Shown here one piece after another: positions 990 through 23,002 of a stretch of 39,213 nucleotides of DNA. The position numbers and the translations under genes are program-made. A model generated the notes under the pieces. That model worked only from the letters and a program-made list of their open reading frames with translations, was not told the DNA's origin and ran no database searches. Origin of the DNA: Planctomycetota bacterium (GTDB lineage: Bacteria > Planctomycetota > Planctomycetia > Pirellulales > UBA1268); the NCBI GenBank assembly GCA_027592945.1, contig JAQCJP010000004.1:1-39213 (forward strand). The letters are read 5' to 3'. Each line of letters starts with the position of its first letter. Within the stretch, counting starts at the first letter, position 1.

Positions 990-2039
990 CTAGGGAATCG
1001 CAACGGCTTGTCCGTCCCTTCGGCTGCCCAGATATTCCCAGACAAACGGATCGATCGTGTACGCGACCGATCGGGTCGCCCCATCGCAGAACGCAGCGTT
1101 CAACTGCCCGACGTGGGGTCCCCCAAACCGCAACGAGCAGACATCCTTCGCATCCTGATCGGCAGCGGGGTGAAAGCGGGCATCGGAACCCTTGGTCCAC
1201 CGAATCACGTCCCAGTCATATCCCTGGAACAGCGAGTTGTTGTCGGAGCACGTGTTGACCCGATGGCCGGAGGCGTGGAAATCGGGTCGCAGGAACTTCT
1301 CGCCCATGAGCAAGGTGTTGGAGGTGCCGTCGCGGATCGCGCTCACGCGAACCGGCAGTCGGGGCCTCACGACGCCGTCGAAGTGTTTCGCGATATTGGC
1401 CTCGGTGTAGGAGCCCCAGTCGCAGTCCGGATAGGTGTCCTGGCAACTCAGCGGCGGCCCGGTGAACCACCGTACCGGCCCCAGAACGGGTGAGTAGCTG
1501 CCGCCGTTGGCAGCGTAGTCGGTCTTGGCAAGCATGTGGTCGGCGGGCTGGGCCGCGTTGATCGAGGCTTCCGGGCCGTACGAGTTGGCGGGCGGGCGAC
1601 GCGAGGGGCAGTGGAACGTGGGGATCGGCTTCGTCTTCTGGTCGAGGAGGGCCGTCCGCTTTTGGCTGTTGGGAAGTCCTTGGCCGATCTCGTAGACCGT
1701 TCCCCCCTCGAGATACGGGAGGATCGAAAAGCACCAGCCGCCGGGCTGTGTCACGCCGGTCGCGCGATCCGGATCGCCGGTCCACCGATACCCCCAGCCG
1801 CCGGCCGGCAGGAATGCCTGCGCGGTCTCGTGGGACTGAAACGCGAGGGCAAGCTGCTTCGCGTGATTCAAACACTGGACATTGCTCGCGGACTCGCGCG
1901 CCGACTGGACCGCCGGCAGCAGCAGGGCCAGCAAGAGGGCTATGATCGCGATCACGACCAGGAGTTCGACGAGGGTGAACCCGTATTTCCCGAGCTTTCC
2001 GGCCGGGCAGTGTCCGTCGTCTGACGAGGCTCGCGTCAT
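990..2039 (-). CDS. DUF1559 protein with prepilin-type N-terminal domain
   Basis: A 349-residue protein. After a short leader (residues 1-19) comes the type IV prepilin cleavage/methylation motif GFTLVELLVVIAI, followed by a long hydrophobic helix and AVQSARESA. This is the pattern of planctomycete pseudopilin-like proteins. The rest is DUF1559, a family greatly expanded in Planctomycetes, and it keeps the typical late elements (CDGATRSVAYTIDPFVWEYLGSR). Such proteins are thought to be processed by a prepilin peptidase and held in the cell envelope by the N-terminal helix. Their role is not established. The start ATG at 2039 is the natural one because the leader is short and charged, but no strong Shine-Dalgarno sequence precedes it. 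The EF-hand lipoprotein lies directly downstream. Confidence 0.92.
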   Translation of the reverse strand: MTRASSDDGHCPAGKLGKYGFTLVELLVVIAIIALLLALLLPAVQSARESASNVQCLNHAKQLALAFQSHETAQAFLPAGGWGYRWTGDPDRATGVTQPGGWCFSILPYLEGGTVYEIGQGLPNSQKRTALLDQKTKPIPTFHCPSRRPPANSYGPEASINAAQPADHMLAKTDYAANGGSYSPVLGPVRWFTGPPLSCQDTYPDCDWGSYTEANIAKHFDGVVRPRLPVRVSAIRDGTSNTLLMGEKFLRPDFHASGHRVNTCSDNNSLFQGYDWDVIRWTKGSDARFHPAADQDAKDVCSLRFGGPHVGQLNAAFCDGATRSVAYTIDPFVWEYLGSRRDGQAVAIP

Positions 2040-2427: not shown

Positions 2428-2452
2428 TGGCGTCAGAATGTCCCATTCGGGC

Positions 2453-2467
2453 AAACTGCGGCAGTTT
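2453..2467. promoter_or_regulatory. Perfect palindrome abutting the -35 element
   Basis: AAACTGCGGCAGTTT is a perfect inverted repeat (AAACTG, CGG, CAGTTT) that ends one base before the -35 hexamer at 2468. The position suits an operator or activator site. As a hairpin followed by a short T run it could also be a weak terminator for transcription entering from the left. Confidence 0.4.
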
Positions 2468-2496
2468 TTGACTCGTGATCCTACAAATGATACGGT
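2468..2496 (+). promoter_or_regulatory. Sigma70-type promoter candidate for the PATR gene
   Basis: TTGACT at 2468-2473 matches the -35 consensus at five of six positions. A 17-base spacer leads to TACGGT at 2491-2496, a weaker -10 (three of six). Transcription would start near 2503 and give a 5' leader of about 50 bases before the ATG at 2552. The weak -10 suggests dependence on an activator. Confidence 0.45.
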
Positions 2497-2551
2497 GCCG
2501 CGGGTTGCCATAGTGCCTTTGTACTTGGGAAAGGGCTGCGGGGGGGTAACG

Positions 2552-3724
2552 ATGCGTAGAACCACGTTATGCGAGCGTTCGGGAGCCAATCGCCCACTGA
2601 GTTTCCGGGCAGCCTTCGCGATGCTTGCCATCGGCGGGATGGTCTTCCAAGGGGCTGGCGCAGCCGATCTTTACTGGAGCGGCACCGGCACCTGGGACAC
2701 CGCGGCGACAAACTGGGGCAGTTCTCAAGGCGGGCCCTACACGGGCTCCACCTGGAGCAACGCCACACCCGACTCTGCGGTCTTCGAAGGCGTCGCAGGA
2801 ACCGTGACGCTCGGTGAAGCGATCACGGCGGCAGGCCTGACGTTTGACATCGATGGCTACACGCTCACGGCAAACACGCTCACGCTGTCTGGCACGGCGA
2901 CGATTTCGACGGATTCTGATGTGACGGCGACCATGGCCAGCACGCTCGCCGGAACCGTCGGCATCACGAAAGACGGTGCGGGCACGCTGGTGCTGACCAC
3001 ATCGGGCGGCTACTCGGGCGGCACCACGGTCAACGGCGGCACGCTCCAACTCGGTGACGGCGGCGGGGCAGTTTCACTCGGCTCAGGGAGCGTTGCCGTC
3101 GCGAGCGGGGCGACGGTGGCCTACAGCACAAACTCGTCAGTGGGCGTGACGTTGCCCCTCGCCAATGAGATTTCCGGCAATGGCAGTCTTACCCTCTCTA
3201 CCGGCGGAGCGGCGCTCCGGGGAATCACGCTGGGCGGAAGTCAGGCATACACGCAATTGGGTGGCGGAGGTCTCTACAACGGCTTCGCCATCGATGCCGG
3301 CACGACCACGATCACGGCGTCGGAGATCACCCTCAGCGGCGACGTCGGCAAAAGGGATTCTGACGGCGGCACACTCGCCCTCGACACCTCGGCAGCGAAT
3401 GGAGCGATGACGCTCGACATCTCGCTCGGCCGCGGTGGCGTGTGGTATGTCCCCGACGCATTCACGGCCAACGCGGGTACCGGTATTATCAATGTCACCG
3501 GCACGGGGCAGTCGGACACCGGCTGGCGGCTCACGCCGGTGACCCTGACAGGCGACATGAACATCACTGCCAGCGTGAATTCCGGGGCAGCCGTGACGCT
3601 GGATCAGACGAATGCCGACCCCGGCGTGGTGTCGGGCGTCCTTTCGGGGGCTATGTCTCTGACCAAGGCGGGCGCCGGCACCCTCGCCCTCACGGCCCAC
3701 CAGGGTTACACCCGCGGCCGTTAG
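2552..3724 (+). CDS. Autotransporter-associated beta-strand (PATR) repeat protein, probably truncated
   Basis: A 390-residue protein from the ATG at 2552, which follows a G-rich ribosome-binding stretch (GGGGGGTAACG). Residues 1-38 look like a signal peptide (hydrophobic FAMLAIGGMVFQGAGAA). The mature N-terminus (LYWSGTGTWDTAATNW) is typical of planctomycete PATR proteins. A full PATR repeat lies near residues 140-175 (KDGAGTLVLTTSGGYSGGTTVNGGTLQLG in outline), and the rest is Thr/Gly/Ser-rich predicted beta-helix. A second PATR unit begins near residue 370 (KAGAGTLALTAHQGYT), but the frame then reads RGR and stops where GGTTVNGGTL would be expected. Members of this group are usually much longer and end in a PEP-CTERM or autotransporter domain. 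None follows here, so this is probably a truncated gene. It would be a surface or secreted protein of unknown role. Confidence 0.8.
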   Translation: MRRTTLCERSGANRPLSFRAAFAMLAIGGMVFQGAGAADLYWSGTGTWDTAATNWGSSQGGPYTGSTWSNATPDSAVFEGVAGTVTLGEAITAAGLTFDIDGYTLTANTLTLSGTATISTDSDVTATMASTLAGTVGITKDGAGTLVLTTSGGYSGGTTVNGGTLQLGDGGGAVSLGSGSVAVASGATVAYSTNSSVGVTLPLANEISGNGSLTLSTGGAALRGITLGGSQAYTQLGGGGLYNGFAIDAGTTTITASEITLSGDVGKRDSDGGTLALDTSAANGAMTLDISLGRGGVWYVPDAFTANAGTGIINVTGTGQSDTGWRLTPVTLTGDMNITASVNSGAAVTLDQTNADPGVVSGVLSGAMSLTKAGAGTLALTAHQGYTRGR

Positions 3725-8403: not shown

Positions 8404-11400
8404 TCAGGACTGCTCGCGGAGTGAGCGATCGGACTCCTGCCGGATCCCAGACGGCCCGGAGTTATCTTCGTCCTGGTCAGCCTGGACAAAGGCGGCGGCC
8501 AGTTGGGCAAAGGCCTGCTGGCTGACCGTCGAAACCTTCGGCTGCCCGAGCGTGCCTGTCGTCGCGAGCGGAGCCGCCGAAGCCGCCGCTTGGGCCGTCG
8601 GCACAATGCTCCCAGCGGCGTAGGTTCCAGCCGTGCTGATGGCGAGCACATCAAACAGGTCGGTGATCCCGTCGTAGTTGAGATCCCCTTCACCCCAGGA
8701 GGCGGAGCCGCCGGTGCCGTAGCGTCCTCCGGTGGAGATGGCCAGCAAGTCGAAGACGTCGACGACCCGGTCGAGATTGACGTCGCCGATGGCCGTGTAG
8801 CTGACCCGCGTCTCACCGGACGGTTCGACGCGATAGCCGACCGCACGGCTGGCTGCGTCGGCCGCCGCGGCGGATGAGCCGATCCCGGTGGCTGAAGCCC
8901 AGGACCCGTCGCCGCGGCCAGCGATCAACTGCTGCCGCAGCGTCTGCGGGTCGAGACTCCCGGCCGGGAGGAGGAGTTCGGCCGTGCCGAGGTCGAGGCT
9001 CGCTCCCGGGGCCATCGCCAGGCCTCCCACGACGACTGTCTCATAGCCCACATCGAGCCGGAGGGCTGCTCCCGGCTCCACCGCGACCTGACCGCTTCCC
9101 AACGCACCGGCCGCACGAACCAGCAACTCTCCCGCCTCGATCAGCGTGCCGTTGGCATGGTCATTGGCCCGATCGAGTACCAGCCGCCCCAACCCTCGCT
9201 TCACCAGCCGGGTGGGGCCGGCGCGACTGACCGGATCGGTCTGCTCGGCTCCCTCGGCAACCTCAAACACGGTGTCCGGCCCGCGGAGACTGACCGCGGC
9301 CAGGCTGCTGAAGCTGCCGGCGTAGTTGCCCTGGATGAATCGCTGCTGGCCGCCCCTCGGTCCGCTGGTGCGGGCCAGAAACGCCGGCACGTTCTTGACG
9401 ACGTAGAGGCTGCCTCCGGCCGGAATGACCGTGCCCCCCCGAAACGTGTGCTCGACGTCGCCCACCAGTTGCCAGCCCGAGATGTCAACGGCTTCCGAAG
9501 AAACGTTGTCGAGCCGGAGGTATTGCTCGGCCGGATTTCCGGAAATAGGGGTGGCGTCGAAGTCGTCGGTATTGATGGTGACCACCGCGGTGGCCCGTTG
9601 GGCGGCCGGCACCCGGGGGTCGGCGGTAATGAACGTCCGCCGCCCGTCGAGAAACACGTCCTGCAGCTGGTCGACCGCCTCGCTCGGCGTGTTCGGATAG
9701 GACCGGAAGTTGGAATGGAGGCCCCATGCGGCGAGGTCGGCCGCGGCTGCGGTTTCAGTCAGCAGCCGCTGCTCCTCGATCCGGCGGTAGGCGTGGCTCT
9801 CGGCGACGGGACTGCCGGGCAGCCCGTAGAAGGCGTCGGAGAGCGACCGCAGCCGCCGAAAGAACATCTCCGCGAGATCAGGATGCTCGAAGAATCGTTT
9901 GAAGACGTTGTTGCCCGCGACCGTTCCGGCCGCGGTGAGGTTGGAATCGAGGAACATGCCATTGTCGAAATACTGGTCTCGCCAGTGATGGCCAAACGAC
10001 AGGTCTTGGTCCCAGGGCAGGGGAAACCACTGCCCGGTTCCGTCGTTGTCGTGGTACCAGAGCATGTTCTTGTGGCCATAGTCGTGATTCCCGATGAGGG
10101 CATGGATGGCCAGATTGTTGACGAGCGAGGCAATCTCCAGGTTGTCGAAATCCCAGGTGGTGGCCGCGGTACCGGAGAGGCCGTTGGCATCGACCACTTC
10201 CTGGAAGTCGCTGTGGTCCTCGTATTCCCGTGACTTCTTCTCGACGTTTGTCGTGGCGCTATTGAGCCAGTTGTTGACCTTGTAGGCGGCACCGTTGGGA
10301 TCGAGCCCGACCCGCTCGAGGTATTCCTCGTCGATCTCCTCGATCACGTCGTAGAGCCCCAGAAAGCTGCCGTTGCGGTGCACGACCACCGGGTAACCGG
10401 CGAGGGCGGGGTGGTCGCCGAAGGCAAAGGCCTCGTAGGCGAGCGGGTGCCGGACCTTCGTCTGATCGGCGTAGTTGGTGAGGAGATTGAAGTCGCTGGC
10501 GATGCCGATGGCGGGTCCGAGGTCGAACTTCTCCCCTGAGTTGGCATCGATGTCGAAGGATTTTTTCGGGAAAAACGAGGTCGACTGCCCGTGCAGATCG
10601 ATCTGGACATTGTCGTAGAAGATGTCGCGGTAGAAGAGAGAGGCTCGCGTTCCTGCGCGGGTCTCCGCGGCTGCCGGATCCTGGACGAACAGCGACATGA
10701 CCGGCAGATCACCCGCGATCGACCCGTCAACCACCACCGTCCCGAAATACTCCGCCGAGTCGGCAGGGTAGAGAAACCGCGGCTCCCGTGTCGCCCGGTT
10801 CTGGATGTCGTCGGCGGTTACGTACCAGCGAAACATCTCGCCGGCAACGAAGCTGGAACCGGGCACCGTCGCGGAATAGATACCGTCGCCCGCCACGCCA
10901 TCACCGTCGGCTCCGGCGTCGTTCATGGCGATGGTGGCCTCCGCCTCGAACATCCGCCGGGTGTGAAGCACCACCGACCCGGGATCGACAGGGTGGTCTG
11001 ACGCAGTGACGCGGGCGGTGAAGACGAGATCCTCACCGGGAAGGAGCCTCCTTCCCGAGGCCGTCACACCGCTGACGGTCGGCCCGAGCGGCAGGCGGGG
11101 ACTGTTGGCGGCACCGGGGCTCGCGGTCGTCAGGTAGCTGATTTCACCGGATGTCAGGGAGTTGGTCGTCAGCAGCGGGGCCATCAGAAAGTCGCTGCTC
11201 TCCGGACTTTGGTTGAGCATCTGAATGGCAAGCGTGTTGGTGCCGTCCACCAGCAGGGAACGGAAATCGCCCTCCGCCCCGGAGCTGCCATCGAGCTTGA
11301 AGTTCTCGTAGCGGACCGCCGCGGAATCGGCGTTATGGGCCGAGGCGATCGCGTCCCAGGTGAGGCCGTTGCCGGCGTTCCGGGAAAAGAGAAAACTGCC

Positions 11401-12264
11401 GTTGAGGTAGGCGGCAAATCCGTCGTCGTATTTCAGGCCCAGGGTGAGATCCGAGACAGTCGCCGCGTCGGTGAGTTCGAACTGCATTCTGGCATAGACG
11501 CTGGTCGTGCCGGCCGGGACCGCTGTCGAGAAGAGCCCCAGATATCGGTGGTAGGAATCGGGCCATTCCTCGTAACCGATGGCGGCCGTGCCGGGCGTGA
11601 ACCCGTTGGCCGCGGCATCAAAGTCATTGGCCGTCCAGTCGCTGCCCAGCGAGCCGTCTTCCGGAATCAGATACCAGGCAGCTGTCTCCGGGGACACGAG
11701 GGGCCCGTTGACGATTCCGTAGGAGATGTCGGAGATCTGTGGGGGATACTCGCTGAGGGCCGACCCAAACTCGTCGATCAGGATTCCGGCCGGTGAGCGG
11801 AGGCCGACATATTCACCGCCGGCGCTGAGGCTGAAGTTGGTGTGGAAATGGCCGGCCGGATCGATCTGGTTGCGGCCCGATGCAAAGACCACCAGATACT
11901 CGCCTGGCTCAAGCACCGCCGAGGTGGGGAATCGCCACTTTGTCGGCTTGTTGACCTTGTCGGTCAGATAGTGGCCCTGCAGATCGACCGGCTCGTCGCC
12001 ACGGTTGTAGATTTCGATCCAGTCGCTCGAGTCACCGAACCCGTCATCGAGGGTCGCGGTGTTGGAGGCCATGAACTCCGAGAGTACAAGATCCGCCGTC
12101 AGCAGCCTGCGGGCTTCGAGCCGCTCGCAGGCCAGTCTCGAGCGGGCAATCCTGTGACGCCGGCGGCGACTGCAGGCAGGGCTCGTCTCCACCGGATCCC
12201 TCGTCAACACGGTTGCATGCCAGTGAAGTTCTCGACTGACCGCCCTGCGTTCCCAGGAGGTCAC
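8404..12264 (-). CDS. LEPR-XLL / lamin-tail / CotH-kinase / dockerin surface protein
   Basis: A 1286-residue multidomain exported protein. Near residues 46-58 it has CERLEARRLLTAD, the LEPR-XLL motif found at the N-termini of large planctomycete extracellular proteins. A lamin-tail domain follows (about residues 57-170, SDWIEIYNRGDEPVDL). The CotH region begins near residue 523 (PVMSLFVQDP) and contains the kinase signature PLPWDQDLSFGHHW near residue 752. CotH-type kinases transfer phosphate to secreted proteins. Around residues 1015-1080 there is a PATR-like beta segment (RGLGRLVLDRANDHANGTLIEAG). Two dockerin type I repeats lie near residues 1155-1215 (GDVNLDRVVDVFDLLAIS and GDLNYDGITDLFDVLAIS). 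The GTG start at 12264 is the furthest upstream. Other GTG or TTG codons before residue 30 are possible. It follows the amidohydrolase on the same strand. Confidence 0.9.
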   Translation of the reverse strand: MTSWERRAVSRELHWHATVLTRDPVETSPACSRRRRHRIARSRLACERLEARRLLTADLVLSEFMASNTATLDDGFGDSSDWIEIYNRGDEPVDLQGHYLTDKVNKPTKWRFPTSAVLEPGEYLVVFASGRNQIDPAGHFHTNFSLSAGGEYVGLRSPAGILIDEFGSALSEYPPQISDISYGIVNGPLVSPETAAWYLIPEDGSLGSDWTANDFDAAANGFTPGTAAIGYEEWPDSYHRYLGLFSTAVPAGTTSVYARMQFELTDAATVSDLTLGLKYDDGFAAYLNGSFLFSRNAGNGLTWDAIASAHNADSAAVRYENFKLDGSSGAEGDFRSLLVDGTNTLAIQMLNQSPESSDFLMAPLLTTNSLTSGEISYLTTASPGAANSPRLPLGPTVSGVTASGRRLLPGEDLVFTARVTASDHPVDPGSVVLHTRRMFEAEATIAMNDAGADGDGVAGDGIYSATVPGSSFVAGEMFRWYVTADDIQNRATREPRFLYPADSAEYFGTVVVDGSIAGDLPVMSLFVQDPAAAETRAGTRASLFYRDIFYDNVQIDLHGQSTSFFPKKSFDIDANSGEKFDLGPAIGIASDFNLLTNYADQTKVRHPLAYEAFAFGDHPALAGYPVVVHRNGSFLGLYDVIEEIDEEYLERVGLDPNGAAYKVNNWLNSATTNVEKKSREYEDHSDFQEVVDANGLSGTAATTWDFDNLEIASLVNNLAIHALIGNHDYGHKNMLWYHDNDGTGQWFPLPWDQDLSFGHHWRDQYFDNGMFLDSNLTAAGTVAGNNVFKRFFEHPDLAEMFFRRLRSLSDAFYGLPGSPVAESHAYRRIEEQRLLTETAAAADLAAWGLHSNFRSYPNTPSEAVDQLQDVFLDGRRTFITADPRVPAAQRATAVVTINTDDFDATPISGNPAEQYLRLDNVSSEAVDISGWQLVGDVEHTFRGGTVIPAGGSLYVVKNVPAFLARTSGPRGGQQRFIQGNYAGSFSSLAAVSLRGPDTVFEVAEGAEQTDPVSRAGPTRLVKRGLGRLVLDRANDHANGTLIEAGELLVRAAGALGSGQVAVEPGAALRLDVGYETVVVGGLAMAPGASLDLGTAELLLPAGSLDPQTLRQQLIAGRGDGSWASATGIGSSAAAADAASRAVGYRVEPSGETRVSYTAIGDVNLDRVVDVFDLLAISTGGRYGTGGSASWGEGDLNYDGITDLFDVLAISTAGTYAAGSIVPTAQAAASAAPLATTGTLGQPKVSTVSQQAFAQLAAAFVQADQDEDNSGPSGIRQESDRSLREQS

Positions 12265-15537: not shown

Positions 15538-16971
15538 TCAGCCTGCCGGGCCGAACGGATCGTTGCGGGCCGGCTGATCAAAGGGAGAGCCGGGACGCTG
15601 CGGCAGATCACCGCCAGCAGGCTTGGGTGGGTCAGCAGCAGGCGGGGCGACGCCGACTCGAGGGCCGATCTCCGTCAGGATCGCTGTCAGCGTTGCCTCC
15701 GTGGGGGTGGTGTCGAGGTCAACCGCCGCCTGGCGTAGTTTCGCTGCCAGATCGGCGGCTCGCCGGGCGTTCTCGCCCTCGAGCAATGCCGCGATGCCGC
15801 CCTCACCGCTGCCTGGAGCAAGCGCCTCAGCCAGCGTGTGAAGTCGCCAGGCGTCCCGCCGGCAGGCCAGCGGAAAGACGGCGTCAGGATCTTCCGGAAT
15901 GAAGGTCTCGGCCTCGGCCGGAGCCAGGCCGGGCTGCCCTTCGATGCCGAACTCCGCCGGCGGAAGGAAGCCTGCTCCCGGTGGCGGAAATCCGCCGCCT
16001 GGCGGCCCGAAGCCAGGCCCGCCGGGAAATCCGCCCTCCATGCCCATGCCACCACGCTGTCCTTCGCCGCTGCTGAGGCGGCGGTCGAATCGGCGTTGCT
16101 CGGCAGCCTTGAGATCAGCAGCGAGTGATTCTGCGGCAAGGGCGCCGATGGCCGAGGTCAGCTGGGAGGCATCAAGCCCTGCGTCGGGCGTGGCAAGCCG
16201 TCCCAGGGCAGCCGCCGCCCGGATTCGGAGATCACGATCGGCCTTGGCATCAGTGAGGATCGTGCTGGTCGCCTCGAGCACGGGTGCCGGGCCTCCCGTG
16301 ACCTGCAGCAACTCAACCGCCCGGGAACGCATCCAGGTGACGGCGGCCGGATCGCCCTCGAGTGGGTTCTCCAGCACCTGGGCGAGCACCGGGGCGACAG
16401 CCTTCCGGAAGGCATCGTTCACCACGCCCGCGTCGGCGTGCCGATTGAGACCGGCCAGGGCCGCGATCCGCACCGCCAGAGGAAGATCGGTATTTCCGGC
16501 TGCCTTGGCCAGCGTCGGCAGGCTGCCCGGCCAGGGTTTGCGATCCGCCCCCTGGAGTTCGCCTACCAGGAGCATGGCGTTGACCGTCAGCAGAGGGTCA
16601 CGGTCGGTGTCGTTGGACAGGACTTCGGCATAGGCGAGGATTCGCGAGTTCACCGCGTCGAAAATCGGTGGATCTTTCGCGTTACGGAGGGCGAGTTCAC
16701 AAATCCGCCGGCGGACCCCCGCAATGCTCGCCCGATTGGTCTCGAGTTCCAGCTGCGGCAGCATCACGCGGTCCAGAAACATCTGCTCCGTCACTTCGAA
16801 GGAACCTGTCCGCAGCGCGTCGCCGTAATCGCGGGTCTCGGCCGCGTTTTCAACCTGCGACCAGGATTCGTAGTCGGCTCCGGCAGCCGGAGTCAGGAAT
16901 ATCGCCAGGGCAAGGAGGGCGGCGGCAGGCGGGGAAACGGCCGGATTGCCGGCAGCAGGCGATGAAGGCAT
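15538..16971 (-). CDS. Secreted helical-repeat protein, last gene of the PilM operon
   Basis: A 477-residue protein from the ATG at 16971, chosen because it is followed by a signal-peptide-like segment (AALLALAIFLTPAAGADYES). Residues about 35-290 are Ala/Leu-rich helices with a HEAT-like spacing (for example LAVRIAALAGLNRHADAG and DLRIRAAAALGRLATPDAG). Then comes a Gly/Pro/Met-rich linker (GGMGMEGGFPGGPGFGPP, about 305-345) and a second helical part, ending in a Pro-rich tail. The protein is probably periplasmic and serves as a scaffold. It lies 43 bases downstream of the previous gene, shares that gene's unusual Gly/Pro-rich composition and is probably part of the same transcript. Family unknown to me. 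The frame is open upstream to 17259, but that start would overlap the previous gene. Confidence 0.78.
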   Translation of the reverse strand: MPSSPAAGNPAVSPPAAALLALAIFLTPAAGADYESWSQVENAAETRDYGDALRTGSFEVTEQMFLDRVMLPQLELETNRASIAGVRRRICELALRNAKDPPIFDAVNSRILAYAEVLSNDTDRDPLLTVNAMLLVGELQGADRKPWPGSLPTLAKAAGNTDLPLAVRIAALAGLNRHADAGVVNDAFRKAVAPVLAQVLENPLEGDPAAVTWMRSRAVELLQVTGGPAPVLEATSTILTDAKADRDLRIRAAAALGRLATPDAGLDASQLTSAIGALAAESLAADLKAAEQRRFDRRLSSGEGQRGGMGMEGGFPGGPGFGPPGGGFPPPGAGFLPPAEFGIEGQPGLAPAEAETFIPEDPDAVFPLACRRDAWRLHTLAEALAPGSGEGGIAALLEGENARRAADLAAKLRQAAVDLDTTPTEATLTAILTEIGPRVGVAPPAADPPKPAGGDLPQRPGSPFDQPARNDPFGPAG

Positions 16972-17014
16972 GGCGGACACCGGATGATGAGGAGGGGAGA
17001 AAGCCGCTGGCTGG

Positions 17015-19249
17015 CTAGCGGCCGCGGCGAGGCTGCGGATCACGATCCCGATTGCTTTCACGACGGTCGGACTTGCCGTCGTCGGGTTCCTTCGTGCCGG
17101 ATTTGAAAAGGGTGGCGGCGTATTGCTCGACCCGGGGCTCCATATCGGCAGCCGAAACAAACTCAAAACTCCCGTCAGGCCGCAGGAAGAGCATCTCGAG
17201 CGGCGGCGGTGGCATGCGGGTTCGGAGGTCGGCTCGTTCATCCTGCGGCCCATGGACATCGAGGAGGATGCGATCGGTTGTCACGGTTTCCCCGTAGAAG
17301 CGGGTGTTGCCAGGCGAATTGAGCGCCATGTCGACGTCGGCGAGTCCGCCCGGTTCAGTCACGACGCTGCGGAGCGCCAGATTGCCGCTTTCTTCGGAGG
17401 GCCCAAGCACCATCACCTCGACGGTATCGCCCCGGAGCTTCATTTTCCGAGCGACGTCCTTCGGGATCGTGCGGGCAGCAAGCGCGGTGGGCTCCGACAC
17501 CCGGACTGGTGGCGTCGGCTGGCTGTAGTCGGAAAGCAGGAACTCTCCCCGGGCCGCCGCCGGGTCGGACAGATAACGGGGCGCGAGGCCGACGTTTGGA
17601 TTTCGCAGAGCGAAGCGAACCCGGTATTGGTAGGTCTCTCCGGGCGTGACCTTGGTGTCCACGAAGCGAAAAAGCCGCATTTCACTCAGCGGCATATCGG
17701 GGTTGAGCCCCATCATCGGGCCGCCTTCGCCGGCCATGCCACCAAAGCCCGCGTCGCGGATCGGTTCCGGAGCGGGGTCGACCAGCGAGCGGGCCGCCCC
17801 GCCGCCGTCGTTGCGGAGTTCGATGCTGAGAATACGAATGACGGGCGTGGGGCCCATGCGATCGACCCTCACAACGACATCGGCGGACTGATCATCGGCA
17901 CTGACCCCCGAAATGGAGAGATCCCTGCCAAAGGCTTCCGAGATCGCGCATACCGGCTTCTTGCCTCGCCCGATCGGGTCCGCGGCGATCCGCTGCCCGC
18001 CATCATCGCTGCGAACGCCAACGCGGTAGAGTCGAATCTCCTGCTGGCGGCGAGGATCCGCTTCCAAAACGACGCCCTCAATCCGAAGCCGCTTGTCGAT
18101 GAAGTCATCGGGTTTGGCGACGAGATCAGCCAGTGAAACCGGTTCCGGCGGCGGCAGATCCTCTTCCTCATCGGGATTGCTATCGAGGTAATCCTCCAAC
18201 TTTGGAATGAACCAAGGATGAACGAGGATGGTGCCCCAGGGGCGGTCAATCCGTTCCGGGGCGGCCGCGGCGTAGCCGATTTCGGTCTCCTGTGGCTGGA
18301 GAAGAAAGAATGGGGGAACCAGTTCCTGAGCCAAGGGTGAACCGGCCTCACCGTCGAGCTCGCCGCCGGGGCCGGGCACCATGGGAACCCTGCCCATCCC
18401 GCCAGGTTCCGTCCGCTCGACGTTCTCGATCTCGAGGCGTTGCCATGTGGGGGAACCACCCGGCACGACCCGAGCACGTTCCACCAAATAGACCGCCCAG
18501 CGGGGATAATCCCGCTCCGGATCCCGGAAGCTTGCCGAGCCGAACCGACTCTCATACTCGGCGATCTGCCGGGCGGCCGGAATCAAGCCTGTCACGACCA
18601 CGAAGGGAGTAACCTTGCCGGGTTCTTGGGGCTGCTCGGGGGTGAGGGCCGCTTCAGGCTCTGGAGCAAGCGGGCCAAAACCTCCAAAGAGCGTGCCGTC
18701 GTCACCGCGGTCGCCCGGACGGCCGCGAGGACGGCGGCCAGGGCCCCGGCCGGGACGCTCAGGCACCGGTTCTGGTGGCAGAGACGGGCGGATCATTCCT
18801 GGCGGCTGGAACATCCCGCCACCACCAACAGCCGCCGCCGGATCCGGCAAGACGGCCACTCCAGCCACTGCCCGCAGCGACTCGATCGGGAAGACCTCGG
18901 GCTTGCTGCGCTTTGTGAGTTCGGCAAAGAGTGGCCGATCAAACAGGGTGGGAGTCTGCGGGGCCGCCGCGATCTTCACCTGCTGCGGCCGCCAGGGCTC
19001 CACCCGAGGTGCCATCGGCCGTCGTTCAGGCACGCGGTCGGCCGGCACGTTTTCGACTCGCACAATGTTGTCACCCGCCGCGCGAGCCAGTTTTTCGAGG
19101 TCTTCCGGCCGCTGCGACGGACTCACCGATTCCGCCCCGATACCCCACCAGATGAGCAGCACCGCAAAGGCTGCCAGGACGGCAAAGGCTATTTTTTCAC
19201 CGTGGTTGAGCAGTGACTCACCGATTCCCGCCATCTTGATACGGCTCAT
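17015..19249 (-). CDS. Single-pass envelope protein of the PilM operon, family unknown
   Basis: A 744-residue protein. The ATG at 19249 overlaps the stop of the previous gene (TGATG), so translation is coupled. The N-terminus is short and cytoplasmic, followed by one transmembrane helix (IAFAVLAAFAVLLIWWGIGA, about residues 19-40), so the bulk should be periplasmic. Residues about 130-190 are Pro/Arg/Gly-rich. Later parts alternate ordered beta-rich segments (VTPGETYQYRVRFALRN near residue 530) with acidic linkers, and the tail is very basic. By position after a PilM and a PilO-like gene it could play the part of PilP, the linker between inner-membrane platform and secretin. No PilP sequence signature is visible, so this is inference. 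Confidence 0.78.
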   Translation of the reverse strand: MSRIKMAGIGESLLNHGEKIAFAVLAAFAVLLIWWGIGAESVSPSQRPEDLEKLARAAGDNIVRVENVPADRVPERRPMAPRVEPWRPQQVKIAAAPQTPTLFDRPLFAELTKRSKPEVFPIESLRAVAGVAVLPDPAAAVGGGGMFQPPGMIRPSLPPEPVPERPGRGPGRRPRGRPGDRGDDGTLFGGFGPLAPEPEAALTPEQPQEPGKVTPFVVVTGLIPAARQIAEYESRFGSASFRDPERDYPRWAVYLVERARVVPGGSPTWQRLEIENVERTEPGGMGRVPMVPGPGGELDGEAGSPLAQELVPPFFLLQPQETEIGYAAAAPERIDRPWGTILVHPWFIPKLEDYLDSNPDEEEDLPPPEPVSLADLVAKPDDFIDKRLRIEGVVLEADPRRQQEIRLYRVGVRSDDGGQRIAADPIGRGKKPVCAISEAFGRDLSISGVSADDQSADVVVRVDRMGPTPVIRILSIELRNDGGGAARSLVDPAPEPIRDAGFGGMAGEGGPMMGLNPDMPLSEMRLFRFVDTKVTPGETYQYRVRFALRNPNVGLAPRYLSDPAAARGEFLLSDYSQPTPPVRVSEPTALAARTIPKDVARKMKLRGDTVEVMVLGPSEESGNLALRSVVTEPGGLADVDMALNSPGNTRFYGETVTTDRILLDVHGPQDERADLRTRMPPPPLEMLFLRPDGSFEFVSAADMEPRVEQYAATLFKSGTKEPDDGKSDRRESNRDRDPQPRRGR

Positions 19250-20805
19250 CAGAACACGCCTCCGTCCGTAAATCCATCGGCGGCTGCATCTGTGAAAACG
19301 TCTTCGCGGGGCGGGGTCGCCAGGCCGATGGTACCGCGGAGCTCCACGGTGACGTCGAAGGATCGCCGCCGCTGCTCGCTCGGTGTCTCGTTGCGTCCGG
19401 CGACCACTGTTGCCAAGAGTCGAGCAAGCCCGCTGCCCGATTCTCCCTGGATCCCGCCTGCTCGGCCCCCTGAATCCCCGCCACCGGCCGGGTTGAGCCG
19501 CACTTGCCGCACATCGACTGGAACCGTCTGGGCCGCCAGTTCGGCAAGCAGGGCGTCGAGCCGCCGCTGGTTCATCACCACCCGAAGGGTAAAGGGCATC
19601 AGATGGATCATCTGGGCGTCCGGCGACGACGCCAACTCCTCGGCACGAATGGGCCGGCCGTCGAAATCGACGTAAATCCACTGTTTGAGCGCCTCGTCGG
19701 GGGAGAGTTGAGGGCCCTCCTCTTCCACCCCTTCGGCCCCCGGGAATCCCGCCAGTCCGCCGCCGGGCGGTGGCCCGCCGCGAGGGCCTTGGCCGTAGCC
19801 GCCGCTCAGGCCACCACCCGCCTGATCACCAAAACGGGGGTTGAGAGGTCGTCCCTGCGGCCCGCCCTCCAGGCCCATCTCGCCTCCCATGCCTGGCTCC
19901 ATCATCGGCAGGCCGTCCTCGCCCATTCGGGAGAGTGGATCGAGGGTGGGACCACGTTGCTGCATGACTCGCTGGGTGCCCTGGCCGCCAGGATTTTCTT
20001 CCGCGGCGGGATAGCCGACGGCCAGTTCCTCAACTTCGATGATCGACGAATCGAACCGGCCTGTGGCACCTGCGTTCATCGTGCGAATCACGTCACAGAG
20101 GAGTCCGTAGACCCAGAGTTCCTCCTGGGCGAGGACCACCTTGGTTGTCGAAGGAACCTGGTCCCAGGTGAAGGATTGGATCAGCCGCTTCTGGTCGGCG
20201 GGGTTCCAGATCAGCGGGTCGAGTGACCGCGACAGCGTTTCATCGTCACCCATCGCACCCGGCAGTCCGACCCCCGGCCCACCCGGCATCGGCCCCCGGA
20301 AACCTTCACCGCCGACGACTCCGTCAGCGGCCATCATCTCCTTGCAGCCCATGCGTTCCGGCAGGAGCCGAACAAGCTCGGGAACCGTGTTTTGGTATCG
20401 CTGCAGGAACCGCTGCGGCAAATCGGTGCGGCCGCCCGACTCGACCCGATCGATGGCCGTCAGGAAGTCGTCGCCCAATCGTGCCGGCCACACCCGCAAC
20501 GGCTCCTGGCTCTCCCAGATCAGTTGCCACTCTTGGAGCAGTTCCTCGCGGACCCGGCCAACCTGCTCGGCGATGTTTTCACTCCATCGGTCGTTGGGGT
20601 GGTCGGGCTCGTTGCGAACAGCGTTCAGGGAGGTGAAGTGCCCGTCGATCTCAGCTTTCTTCGCCGAAATCAACTTCTGCAGCCCGCCATTGGCCACAAA
20701 CAATGCCGGCAGCATCAACAGCGGCACCAACACCGCCAGAATCCAGAAGTGGTACTTCGCAAGCCCGGCGGCGTAGGGTCGGATTGAATCGGGGAGTTGA
20801 GGCAT
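19249..20805 (-). CDS. Single-pass envelope protein of the PilM operon, PilO-like position
   Basis: A 518-residue protein from the ATG at 20805, 19 bases after the pilM stop. It has a short N-terminus, one transmembrane helix (YHFWILAVLVPLLMLPALFV, about residues 18-38) and then a charged, probably coiled-coil region (LQKLISAKKAEIDGHF and following). This is the topology of PilN/PilO proteins. Two Gly/Pro/Met-rich linkers (about residues 160-190 and 300-385) are much longer than in classical PilO (about 200 residues). A C-terminal ordered domain (FTLRVVMNQRRLDALLAELA) has the beta-alpha pattern of the PilO ferredoxin-like domain. It probably works with the neighbouring membrane proteins in an assembly platform. 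The assignment rests on topology and gene order rather than a recognised motif. Confidence 0.78.
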   Translation of the reverse strand: MPQLPDSIRPYAAGLAKYHFWILAVLVPLLMLPALFVANGGLQKLISAKKAEIDGHFTSLNAVRNEPDHPNDRWSENIAEQVGRVREELLQEWQLIWESQEPLRVWPARLGDDFLTAIDRVESGGRTDLPQRFLQRYQNTVPELVRLLPERMGCKEMMAADGVVGGEGFRGPMPGGPGVGLPGAMGDDETLSRSLDPLIWNPADQKRLIQSFTWDQVPSTTKVVLAQEELWVYGLLCDVIRTMNAGATGRFDSSIIEVEELAVGYPAAEENPGGQGTQRVMQQRGPTLDPLSRMGEDGLPMMEPGMGGEMGLEGGPQGRPLNPRFGDQAGGGLSGGYGQGPRGGPPPGGGLAGFPGAEGVEEEGPQLSPDEALKQWIYVDFDGRPIRAEELASSPDAQMIHLMPFTLRVVMNQRRLDALLAELAAQTVPVDVRQVRLNPAGGGDSGGRAGGIQGESGSGLARLLATVVAGRNETPSEQRRRSFDVTVELRGTIGLATPPREDVFTDAAADGFTDGGVF

Positions 20806-20824
20806 GCCGTCAGATCCGATGCTG

Positions 20825-23002
20825 TCAGAAAGAGAGGCCTGAATCGTCGGCGGGGGGAGCCACCGGTCGAGGTGAACCACCGGGCACAGTCGGCTGCCAT
20901 GTGAACTGGAGCGTGAAGGCGTATCGTCGCAGCTCGATGCTCTGCTCCTGTTCCTCGTCGAGGTCAGCCGGTGCTCGTCCGGGCAGGCCGCCGGAATCCC
21001 CCTCAGCCGCCCGCGCGGTGCTCACACGAACGGTTCTGACGGGAGTCCGCTCCACGATCACCGGATAGCCGATGCCCAACTCGGCCACTGACACCGTGGC
21101 GGGCTGGCCGGCCACCTCGGCGTCGGCAACCAGCGGACCCGCGGAAACGGGGAGCCGGGTTTCCTCATCCAGCATCTTGTTGAGGAACTCCTCGCGGACA
21201 AACTGCTCGCCCTCGAGCGGCTTGTGCCGGTCTTCATTGTGGTAGTGGTAGCCCACGAGTTGCACGACCCATCCTGGGCCAGATGGCCCGTCAGGCTGGG
21301 GCGATCCTCCGTCATCCTCCAGGCCAAGTCCCGGATCCACGGAGGCCTGCTCGGCAGCAGCGTCCTGCGGGAGGCCGTTATCCTCCTCGGGGCTCGCCAG
21401 GTCGCCCGGCTCTGTGGCTGCGGGCTCGGCATTGAGCCCGGCGGCCCGCTTGGTCTGCTCCCACTCGTCTTTGACCCCCTGAAACCAGACGGAAAGGTCA
21501 GGGAAGTATTGCATGTCGAGGGAGAAGACGTGGATCTCGCGGCGATCGGCAGGGTTTTCCGGAATCGCGTCGGCAGGGTCGCTAGGCAGGAGCGTCGCCA
21601 ACGCCCGAACCAGGCCGAGGGCCTCAAATCGCCGCTCGTAGAGATCGAGGACGTACCGTTCCCAGGCGATCGTGTCGCGGAGTTGTTGCTCGGACTCCTC
21701 AAACGCGGCCTTTGCCGCTGCCGACCGGCTCTTGACACCATCCGACGATGCAAAGGCCGAGCTATATCCGGCCGCCTGGAAACTGCTGGCCGCCAGAAAC
21801 CAGCCTGCGAAGTTGGCAACGCCGGCGACGAGGAGCGTGAGCACCGCAGCCAGGGCCCAAGGGCGTTTGGCGGCCACCAATCGATCCCGGGCAATTTCCG
21901 GCGGTAGCAGGTTGGTGCCCATGCCCGCGCCGCCTGCCGCCTGCAGGGCGAGGCCGTAGGCAGTCCCAAAGCCCAGGCGGTTGTCGCGAAAGGCGGTCGC
22001 CTTGGTCGCCGGCCCTTCCATCGCCGCGAACGTGTCGAGGCGGCGAACATCGAGCTGCAACTGCTTGCCGACGAAGTCGGCAAGCCCCCGCAGCTTGGCC
22101 GCGTTGCCGAGCAGGAAGACCTTGCCGATCTTGGCGGTCCGGTCGGTGCCGGTGAAGTAGTTGAGCGATCGCTGCAGTTCGGACGCGAACTGGTTGAAGA
22201 CCGGCCGCATCGCCTTGAAGACCGCCCGGGGATCACTGGCGCGGACGGCGTTCCGCTTCTCCTTTTCGGCCTTGGCAAACGTGTATTGGAGGTCTTGGAC
22301 CAGCGCCTTTGTGAAACTCCCTCCGCCGATCGGCATGCTCCGCTGCCAGATGCGAAGCCCGTTGGTGACCACCAGGTCAGTCGAGTCGACACCGATCGAG
22401 ACGAGCACGATCGACTCCGGCGGGTTCTCGGGGTCGATCGTCGCCGGGTCGGGCAACTGGTCGAACATCGCCATGTTGGCCAGGGCGATGGGCGTCAACT
22501 GGAGGATGTCGACATCGATGCCGGCCGCGTTGAAGGGCGCGAGGGTCTTGGTGACCTGATCCCGCTTCATCGCGAAGAGGGCAACCTCGGCATCCATGAC
22601 GAAGCCCCCCTCTTCGATACCGGCAGCGAGTCGTTGCCAGTCCCAGACGACCTGGTCGAGGGGAAAGGGGATCTGTTGGCTCGCCTCATACTTGACGATG
22701 TCCGGAATTTTTTTCGCTTCGACAGGCGGCAGTTTGATGAACTTTGCCAGCCCGGACTGGCCCGCCGCCGAAACCGCCACGCGGTCGCCGGTCAGGTCGT
22801 TGCGGGAGAGAAACTCCTCGAGAGCCGCCTCGATGAGGGCCTGCGGATCCGCCTCCGGCTGGGACAGCATCATGGGGTATTCGACGACGTCGAAACCCTC
22901 GGCCACGATCTTGCGGGGGTCGGTCGGGGAGATCCGGCAACGGAGCGCCTTGAGGCTGCTCTTGCCGATGTCGATTCCCCACGCGTATGGGCTGGATGCC
23001 AT
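20825..23002 (-). CDS. pilM: PilM-family actin-like ATPase fused to a PilN-like membrane segment
   Basis: A 725-residue protein. The ATG at 23002 has an AGGA upstream and begins directly at the fold (YAWGIDIGKSSLKALRC, phosphate-1 loop). The PilM core runs to about residue 365, with the second phosphate loop VSIGVDSTDLVVTNG, IGGGSFTKAL, KYEASQQIPFPLDQVVWDW and GNAAKLRGL, all typical. A transmembrane helix follows (residues about 379-403, ALAAVLTLLVAGVANFAGWF), then a charged coiled coil (about 415-465), an acidic linker and a C-terminal ordered domain. In classical systems PilM is cytoplasmic and binds the N-terminus of the separate membrane protein PilN. Here both seem to be in one chain. 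This is the first gene of a four-gene operon and probably nucleates the inner-membrane platform of a pilus or type II secretion-like machine. Confidence 0.88.
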   Translation of the reverse strand: MASSPYAWGIDIGKSSLKALRCRISPTDPRKIVAEGFDVVEYPMMLSQPEADPQALIEAALEEFLSRNDLTGDRVAVSAAGQSGLAKFIKLPPVEAKKIPDIVKYEASQQIPFPLDQVVWDWQRLAAGIEEGGFVMDAEVALFAMKRDQVTKTLAPFNAAGIDVDILQLTPIALANMAMFDQLPDPATIDPENPPESIVLVSIGVDSTDLVVTNGLRIWQRSMPIGGGSFTKALVQDLQYTFAKAEKEKRNAVRASDPRAVFKAMRPVFNQFASELQRSLNYFTGTDRTAKIGKVFLLGNAAKLRGLADFVGKQLQLDVRRLDTFAAMEGPATKATAFRDNRLGFGTAYGLALQAAGGAGMGTNLLPPEIARDRLVAAKRPWALAAVLTLLVAGVANFAGWFLAASSFQAAGYSSAFASSDGVKSRSAAAKAAFEESEQQLRDTIAWERYVLDLYERRFEALGLVRALATLLPSDPADAIPENPADRREIHVFSLDMQYFPDLSVWFQGVKDEWEQTKRAAGLNAEPAATEPGDLASPEEDNGLPQDAAAEQASVDPGLGLEDDGGSPQPDGPSGPGWVVQLVGYHYHNEDRHKPLEGEQFVREEFLNKMLDEETRLPVSAGPLVADAEVAGQPATVSVAELGIGYPVIVERTPVRTVRVSTARAAEGDSGGLPGRAPADLDEEQEQSIELRRYAFTLQFTWQPTVPGGSPRPVAPPADDSGLSF

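Follow-up and report, generated by a model that had tools for sequence, protein, structure and literature searches.

A candidate inner-membrane platform for a planctomycete type IV pilus or type II secretion-like machine, headed by a PilM-PilN-type fusion

The closest described relatives of the system analyzed here are the PilM-PilN-PilO-PilP set, with PilQ, of the type IVa pilus (T4aP), the GspL, GspM and GspC proteins of the type II secretion system (T2SS) and the Amuc_1098–Amuc_1102 locus of Akkermansia. The T2SS protein PulL/GspL has been described as a PilM-PilN fusion, and loss of PilT has been given as a step from T4aP to T2SS (PMC10191384). GspL is reported to have a permuted ferredoxin-like order, and PilN and PilO have been described with related domains (PMC6233222). 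The MUL2 locus of Akkermansiaceae consists of amuc_1099, amuc_1100, amuc_1101 (PilM) and amuc_1102 (pilin-like) and has been credited with a role in attachment to glycans (PMC13174399), and planctomycetes bear fibers on crateriform structures that bind dextran and have been described by microscopy (PMC5394234). In the literature searched, outside which most subscription journals lie, we found no report of a PilM-PilN fusion in planctomycetes. Here we describe a four-gene operon, M-N-O-H, on a 39,213-nucleotide stretch of Planctomycetota bacterium DNA (GenBank assembly GCA_027592945.1, contig JAQCJP010000004.1; hereafter, the window), whose first gene appears to encode PilM and PilN in one chain.

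All four genes lie on the minus strand between positions 15538 and 23002, where a first-pass annotation made from the sequence alone had placed them: M (20825–23002, 725 residues), N (19249–20805, 518 residues), O (17015–19249, 744 residues) and H (15538–16971, 477 residues). The array is tight, with gaps of 19 bp between M and N and 43 bp between O and H, and the stop codon of N overlaps the start codon of O in a TGATG (19247–19251, minus), the coupling that had been reported from the sequence. A promoter and terminator scan of the operon gave no signal above that of shuffled sequences and is therefore uninformative on its ends. The source genome comprises 3.56 Mb in 326 contigs and is 95% complete. 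We conclude that M, N and O very probably make up the alignment platform, in the inner membrane, of a type IV pilus (T4P) or T2SS-like machine that is core to Planctomycetia. The operon provides candidates for the inner-membrane platform still missing from the planctomycete pilus or secretion machine, in which PilN and PilO go undetected by Pfam. The first-pass annotation had proposed a PilM-PilN-type fusion within a divergent pilus or secretion platform, and this proposal gains support from machine genes in the genome, from predicted PilN- and PilO-like folds and from a secretin gene beside the operon in sister lineages.

The fused chain of M

The cytoplasmic part of M is a PilM actin-like domain (residues 9–354; 21941–22978, minus), which is backed by Pfam, NCBIfam, PDB sequence and Foldseek comparisons. 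It aligns with PilM_2 (PF11104) at an E-value of 6e-34 (117.8 bits against a cut-off of 27), and M passes the 133-bit cut-off of TIGR01175 pilM with 144.1 bits. M also matches NF045709 (Amuc_1101_fam) with 186.7 bits (E 8.5e-55), below the 650-bit equivalog cut-off of that model. The AlphaFold2 model of M has a mean predicted local distance difference test score (pLDDT) of 86, and Foldseek matches it to PilM 5eou at E 2e-24 with a TM-score of 0.82 by target. Ten PilM chains (E ≤1e-21) lead the ranking and are followed by FtsA; the cytoplasmic domains of GspL reach E 3e-9.

Directly after the PilM domain, M carries the sequence TNLLPPEI, in which NLLP (residues 364–367; 21902–21913, minus) aligns with the NLLP of the PilM-PilN(1–12) chain in PDB entry 5eou. 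PilN is known to bind PilM through this motif, to which PDB entries 5eou and 2ych are devoted. The fusion junction of M therefore holds the N-terminal PilM-binding motif of PilN, placed before the membrane helix, and 60 of 64 homologues retain the pattern N-[LIVM]-[LIVM]-P. The single membrane helix follows at residues ~387–405 (21788–21844, minus), with its hydropathy peak at 387 and a model helix spanning 368–406. Beyond it, the model places a long periplasmic helix (residues 414–471; 21590–21763, minus) that is presumably a coiled coil. M had been read beforehand as a complete PilM fold joined to a transmembrane helix and coiled coil; the first two were recovered, and the predicted long helix would fit the third.

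Residues 490–702 of M (20897–21535, minus) are predicted to form a permuted ferredoxin-like domain of the PilN/GspL type. Its model elements, in order, are a strand, an extra helix, a second strand, a helix and two further strands; a loop at 527–568 is disordered. Counting the long helix as the first helix makes this succession the permuted (abb)2 ferredoxin order that GspL is described as having. The Pfam model of PilN (PF05137) has its best match in this genome on another contig, at E 0.5, and no real similarity between M and N emerged from a profile–profile comparison. Taken together, the NLLP motif and the predicted fold support M as a PilM-PilN fusion.

M shares its PilM domain and the NLLP of PilN with T4aP, from which it differs in carrying PilM and PilN in one chain. 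The first-pass annotation had noted that PilN is normally a separate protein; the fused chain stands, but such a fusion has a precedent in PulL/GspL (PMC10191384) and apparently also in Amuc_1101. As in GspL, the cytoplasmic PilM-like part of M, its one helix and its predicted ferredoxin-like periplasmic domain lie in a single chain. This likeness raises the alternative that the operon encodes a true T2SS platform, with M as GspL, N as GspM and O as GspC, serving a pseudopilus that secretes proteins and forms no surface pilus; one N member matches GspM, and the prepilin genes behind pilC elsewhere in the genome match GspG, GspH, PilV and GspK models, all of them weakly. However, M has a full PilM fold that is much nearer PilM than GspL (Foldseek E 2e-24 versus 3e-9, with TIGR01175 over its cut-off), it retains the PilN motif, and the genome keeps PilT, over cut-off in the pilB-pilC cluster, whereas the T2SS is described as having lost it (PMC10191384). 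We consider this more specific and partly competing explanation unlikely. Because M is nearer PilM than GspL and contains NLLP, we find descent from GspL less likely than an independent fusion or an intermediate. The joint presence, in one genome, of PilT and of a fusion with the PilN binding motif bears on the relationship between the T2SS and the type IVa pilus.

Candidate partners and gene order

N and O each have one membrane segment, N-terminal and predicted by hydropathy at residues ~20–38 (20692–20748 in N and 19136–19192 in O, both minus), and H has a hydrophobic, signal-peptide-like start, in agreement with the earlier description of two single-pass proteins followed by a secreted one. 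The AlphaFold2 model of N contains a ferredoxin-like core (pLDDT >90) in two portions, a first helix and strand within residues 220–263 (20017–20148, minus) and the remaining strand-helix-strand-strand within residues 400–496 (19318–19608, minus). Its elements are helix 220–243, strands 255–263 and 400–412, helix 413–424 and strands 430–437 and 484–496. This alpha-beta-beta-alpha-beta-beta, or (abb)2, order is that of PilO and GspM and matches the permutation that GspL is reported to have (PMC6233222). In a Foldseek search of 350,542 PDB chains, the nine best matches to N were eight Amuc_1100 chains and one PilO chain from a T4aP machine model, with probabilities of 0.75–0.98. The resemblance of the predicted structure of N to Amuc_1100 and PilO is suggestive. 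A PilN/PilO-like fold downstream of the membrane helices, as the first-pass annotation had anticipated, is therefore predicted in both M (by AlphaFold2) and N (by AlphaFold2 and Foldseek). Amuc_1100 is a much-studied Akkermansia protein, for whose relatives these models suggest a possible role as a PilO-like platform subunit.

Sequence comparisons of N are fainter. Among N members, Amuc_1100_fam is matched more often than any other family, yet by only 3 of 23 and with a best E-value of 0.056; the 180-bit equivalog cut-off of this family (NF038287) is not reached by N and is passed in 0 of 196 genomes of the phylum. A phmmer search started from an Amuc_1100-like protein of another class failed to retrieve the Amuc_1100 structures, a profile search of N against PDB sequences returned chance-level matches only, and a profile–profile comparison of N with O gave no real similarity. 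The best match in this genome to the Pfam model of PilO (PF04350) is at E 0.1, on another contig. Among 12 loci from other classes of the Planctomycetota with weak Amuc_1100_fam matches, 6 have a relative of M next to the match. Three of these six (L217, L220 and L221) show a second operon type, composed of an FHA-domain membrane protein, a PilM-like protein, an Amuc_1100-like protein and a TPR protein, to which L217 and L220 add a GspG-like prepilin.

The gene order is conserved far beyond chance. M is present in 57 of 60 genomes of the window's family and in 147 of 149 sampled genomes of the class Planctomycetia, and the M-N-O order is kept in all 19 complete family loci and all 20 class loci. 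Among 80 genome-contig loci, 64 have M-N-O intact, and the remaining 16 run off contig ends. The slot after O often holds a secretin gene in sister lineages and holds H in the window's family. Of the loci with over 4 kb of sequence past O, 14 of the 23 genome-contig loci from outside the family and 6 of the 15 class loci have a secretin gene as the next gene; each set also includes nine loci in which the search used shows neither a secretin nor H. The M-N-O-secretin order of the sister lineages is a further likeness to T4aP, as is the PilO-like predicted fold of N. N and O are, by contrast, far longer than their T4aP counterparts, with Gly/Pro-rich linkers, O has no detectable similarity to PilP, and the operon in the window's family lacks a secretin. 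Linkers rich in Gly, Pro and Met had been attributed to all four proteins; 40-residue windows with at least 40% of these residues occur in N, O and H, but M has none.

O lies between N and the secretin gene, the place of pilP or gspC, in sister lineages and not in the window's family. Because of this position before the secretin gene, we suggest by analogy that O may be a PilP/GspC-like connector. A profile search of O against PDB sequences gave chance-level matches only, and matches to AbrB and MazE were set aside as weak. O also contains a domain-sized insert (window ~17800–18130) that it shares with one close relative (L051) and that is absent from the other aligned O homologues.

H is repeat-like by eye and has no recognized domain. 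Of the 30 family loci that contain M-N-O, 27 have H in the slot after O, against 0 of 34 other such loci; in sister genomes, distant H relatives stand apart from M-N-O. We asked whether H might be a displaced secretin domain and rejected this idea, as the H profile matches no secretin in the loci examined. We regard H as a probable accessory and not a core part.

Several observations weigh against assigning M, N and O to a pilus or secretion platform. The periplasmic domain of M has no PDB match of its own, with no PilN or GspL periplasmic structure among the Foldseek matches listed, and its PilN assignment rests on element order. For N, the nine best Foldseek matches have E-values of 0.1–0.5, with the PilO chain at E of at least 0.3; because these values are ~0.1 or worse, the likeness to Amuc_1100 and PilO rests on the ranking of chains and on context. 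No sequence search ties N to a known family over cut-off in Pfam and NCBIfam scans of all N members. O likewise has no match over cut-off in such scans of all O members and no PDB sequence match, and in the window's family the secretin gene lies away from the operon.

Machine genes elsewhere in the genome and a possible product

A search of the genome for pilus or type II machinery, as the first-pass annotation had advised, recovered the motor ATPase, PilC/GspF, prepilin, prepilin peptidase and secretin genes of a T4P/T2SS machine. Contig C318 carries, in a row, PilB, PilT (over cut-off), PilB, PilC and five prepilin-like genes; the prepilin peptidase is on contig C277; and the one secretin, on contig C15, matches Amuc_1098_fam at 2e-15, below the equivalog cut-off. 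The presence of PilT argues for a retractable pilus as the product. The genome has a single PilM and no Pfam PilN or PilO over cut-off anywhere, and M and N are therefore the sole candidates found for these roles. A PilB on C318 (L015:7868–9583) has an MshE-related N-domain over cut-off that binds cyclic di-GMP (c-di-GMP), suggesting, from its sequence, c-di-GMP control of the PilB motor.

We also considered an unrelated envelope complex that has borrowed a PilM domain and is involved in neither pili nor secretion. O and H lack any recognized domain, and the pilB/pilC cluster and the secretin are on other contigs of the genome, as such a complex would allow. Yet the secretin adjoins the operon in sister lineages, M contains the NLLP motif, and the genome has no other PilM, PilN or PilO to serve its PilB/PilC/secretin set. 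We judge this explanation highly improbable.

In the inner-membrane platform that we favor, M would supply PilM and PilN in one chain. Its cytoplasmic actin-like domain would hold its PilN part through NLLP, either in cis or between neighboring molecules, and would be likely to interact with the PilB/PilT motors and with PilC. In the periplasm, the long helix and ferredoxin-like domain of M would pair with N, the putative PilO/GspM counterpart, and O, like PilP or GspC, would link the M-N ring to the secretin in the outer membrane. In the window's family, whose secretin gene lies outside the operon, H may act as a secreted accessory encoded with M-N-O.

A compatible possibility is that the operon is the planctomycete counterpart of the Akkermansia MUL2 or Amuc_1098–Amuc_1102 pilus locus, used for holding or taking up glycans. 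The two loci share a PilM-like protein with a C-terminal extension, an Amuc_1100-like second protein and a secretin that is nearby in sister lineages: M matches Amuc_1101_fam at 8.5e-55, the predicted structure of N resembles Amuc_1100, and the secretin matches Amuc_1098_fam. The role attributed to MUL2 (amuc_1099–1102, with PilM) in glycan attachment (PMC13174399) and the dextran-binding planctomycete fibers on crateriform structures (PMC5394234) fit the same view. Against it, all the NCBIfam matches fall below their equivalog cut-offs, no counterpart of H was identified in a comparison made by profiles and published description, and the glycan function is borrowed, by analogy, from the cited papers. 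We hold this possibility tentatively, as a plausible special case of the M-N-O platform; the probabilities that we assign to the alternatives are not mutually exclusive.

The M-N-O genes are natural suspects for the planctomycete fibers and crateriform structures that bind dextran (PMC5394234). It seems doubtful to us that the fused platform, core to Planctomycetia and related to Amuc_1100/1101 of Akkermansia, drives the 12 nm crateriform fibers with DUF1559 pilins and thus underlies both capture and uptake of macromolecules by planctomycetes. DUF1559 proteins, whose link to the platform, raised by the first-pass annotation, is conjectural, account for 37 matches in ~36 genes spread over the genome. 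One lies inside the window (990–2039, minus; PF07596 at E 1e-31) and has a prepilin N-methylation motif (PF07963, over cut-off), which overturns the earlier statement that the window contains no pilin. The window also encodes a protein with the passenger-associated-transport repeat PF12951, over cut-off (2438–3724, plus), and a large protein of the CotH kinase type that contains Lamin Tail Domains (8404–12264, minus).

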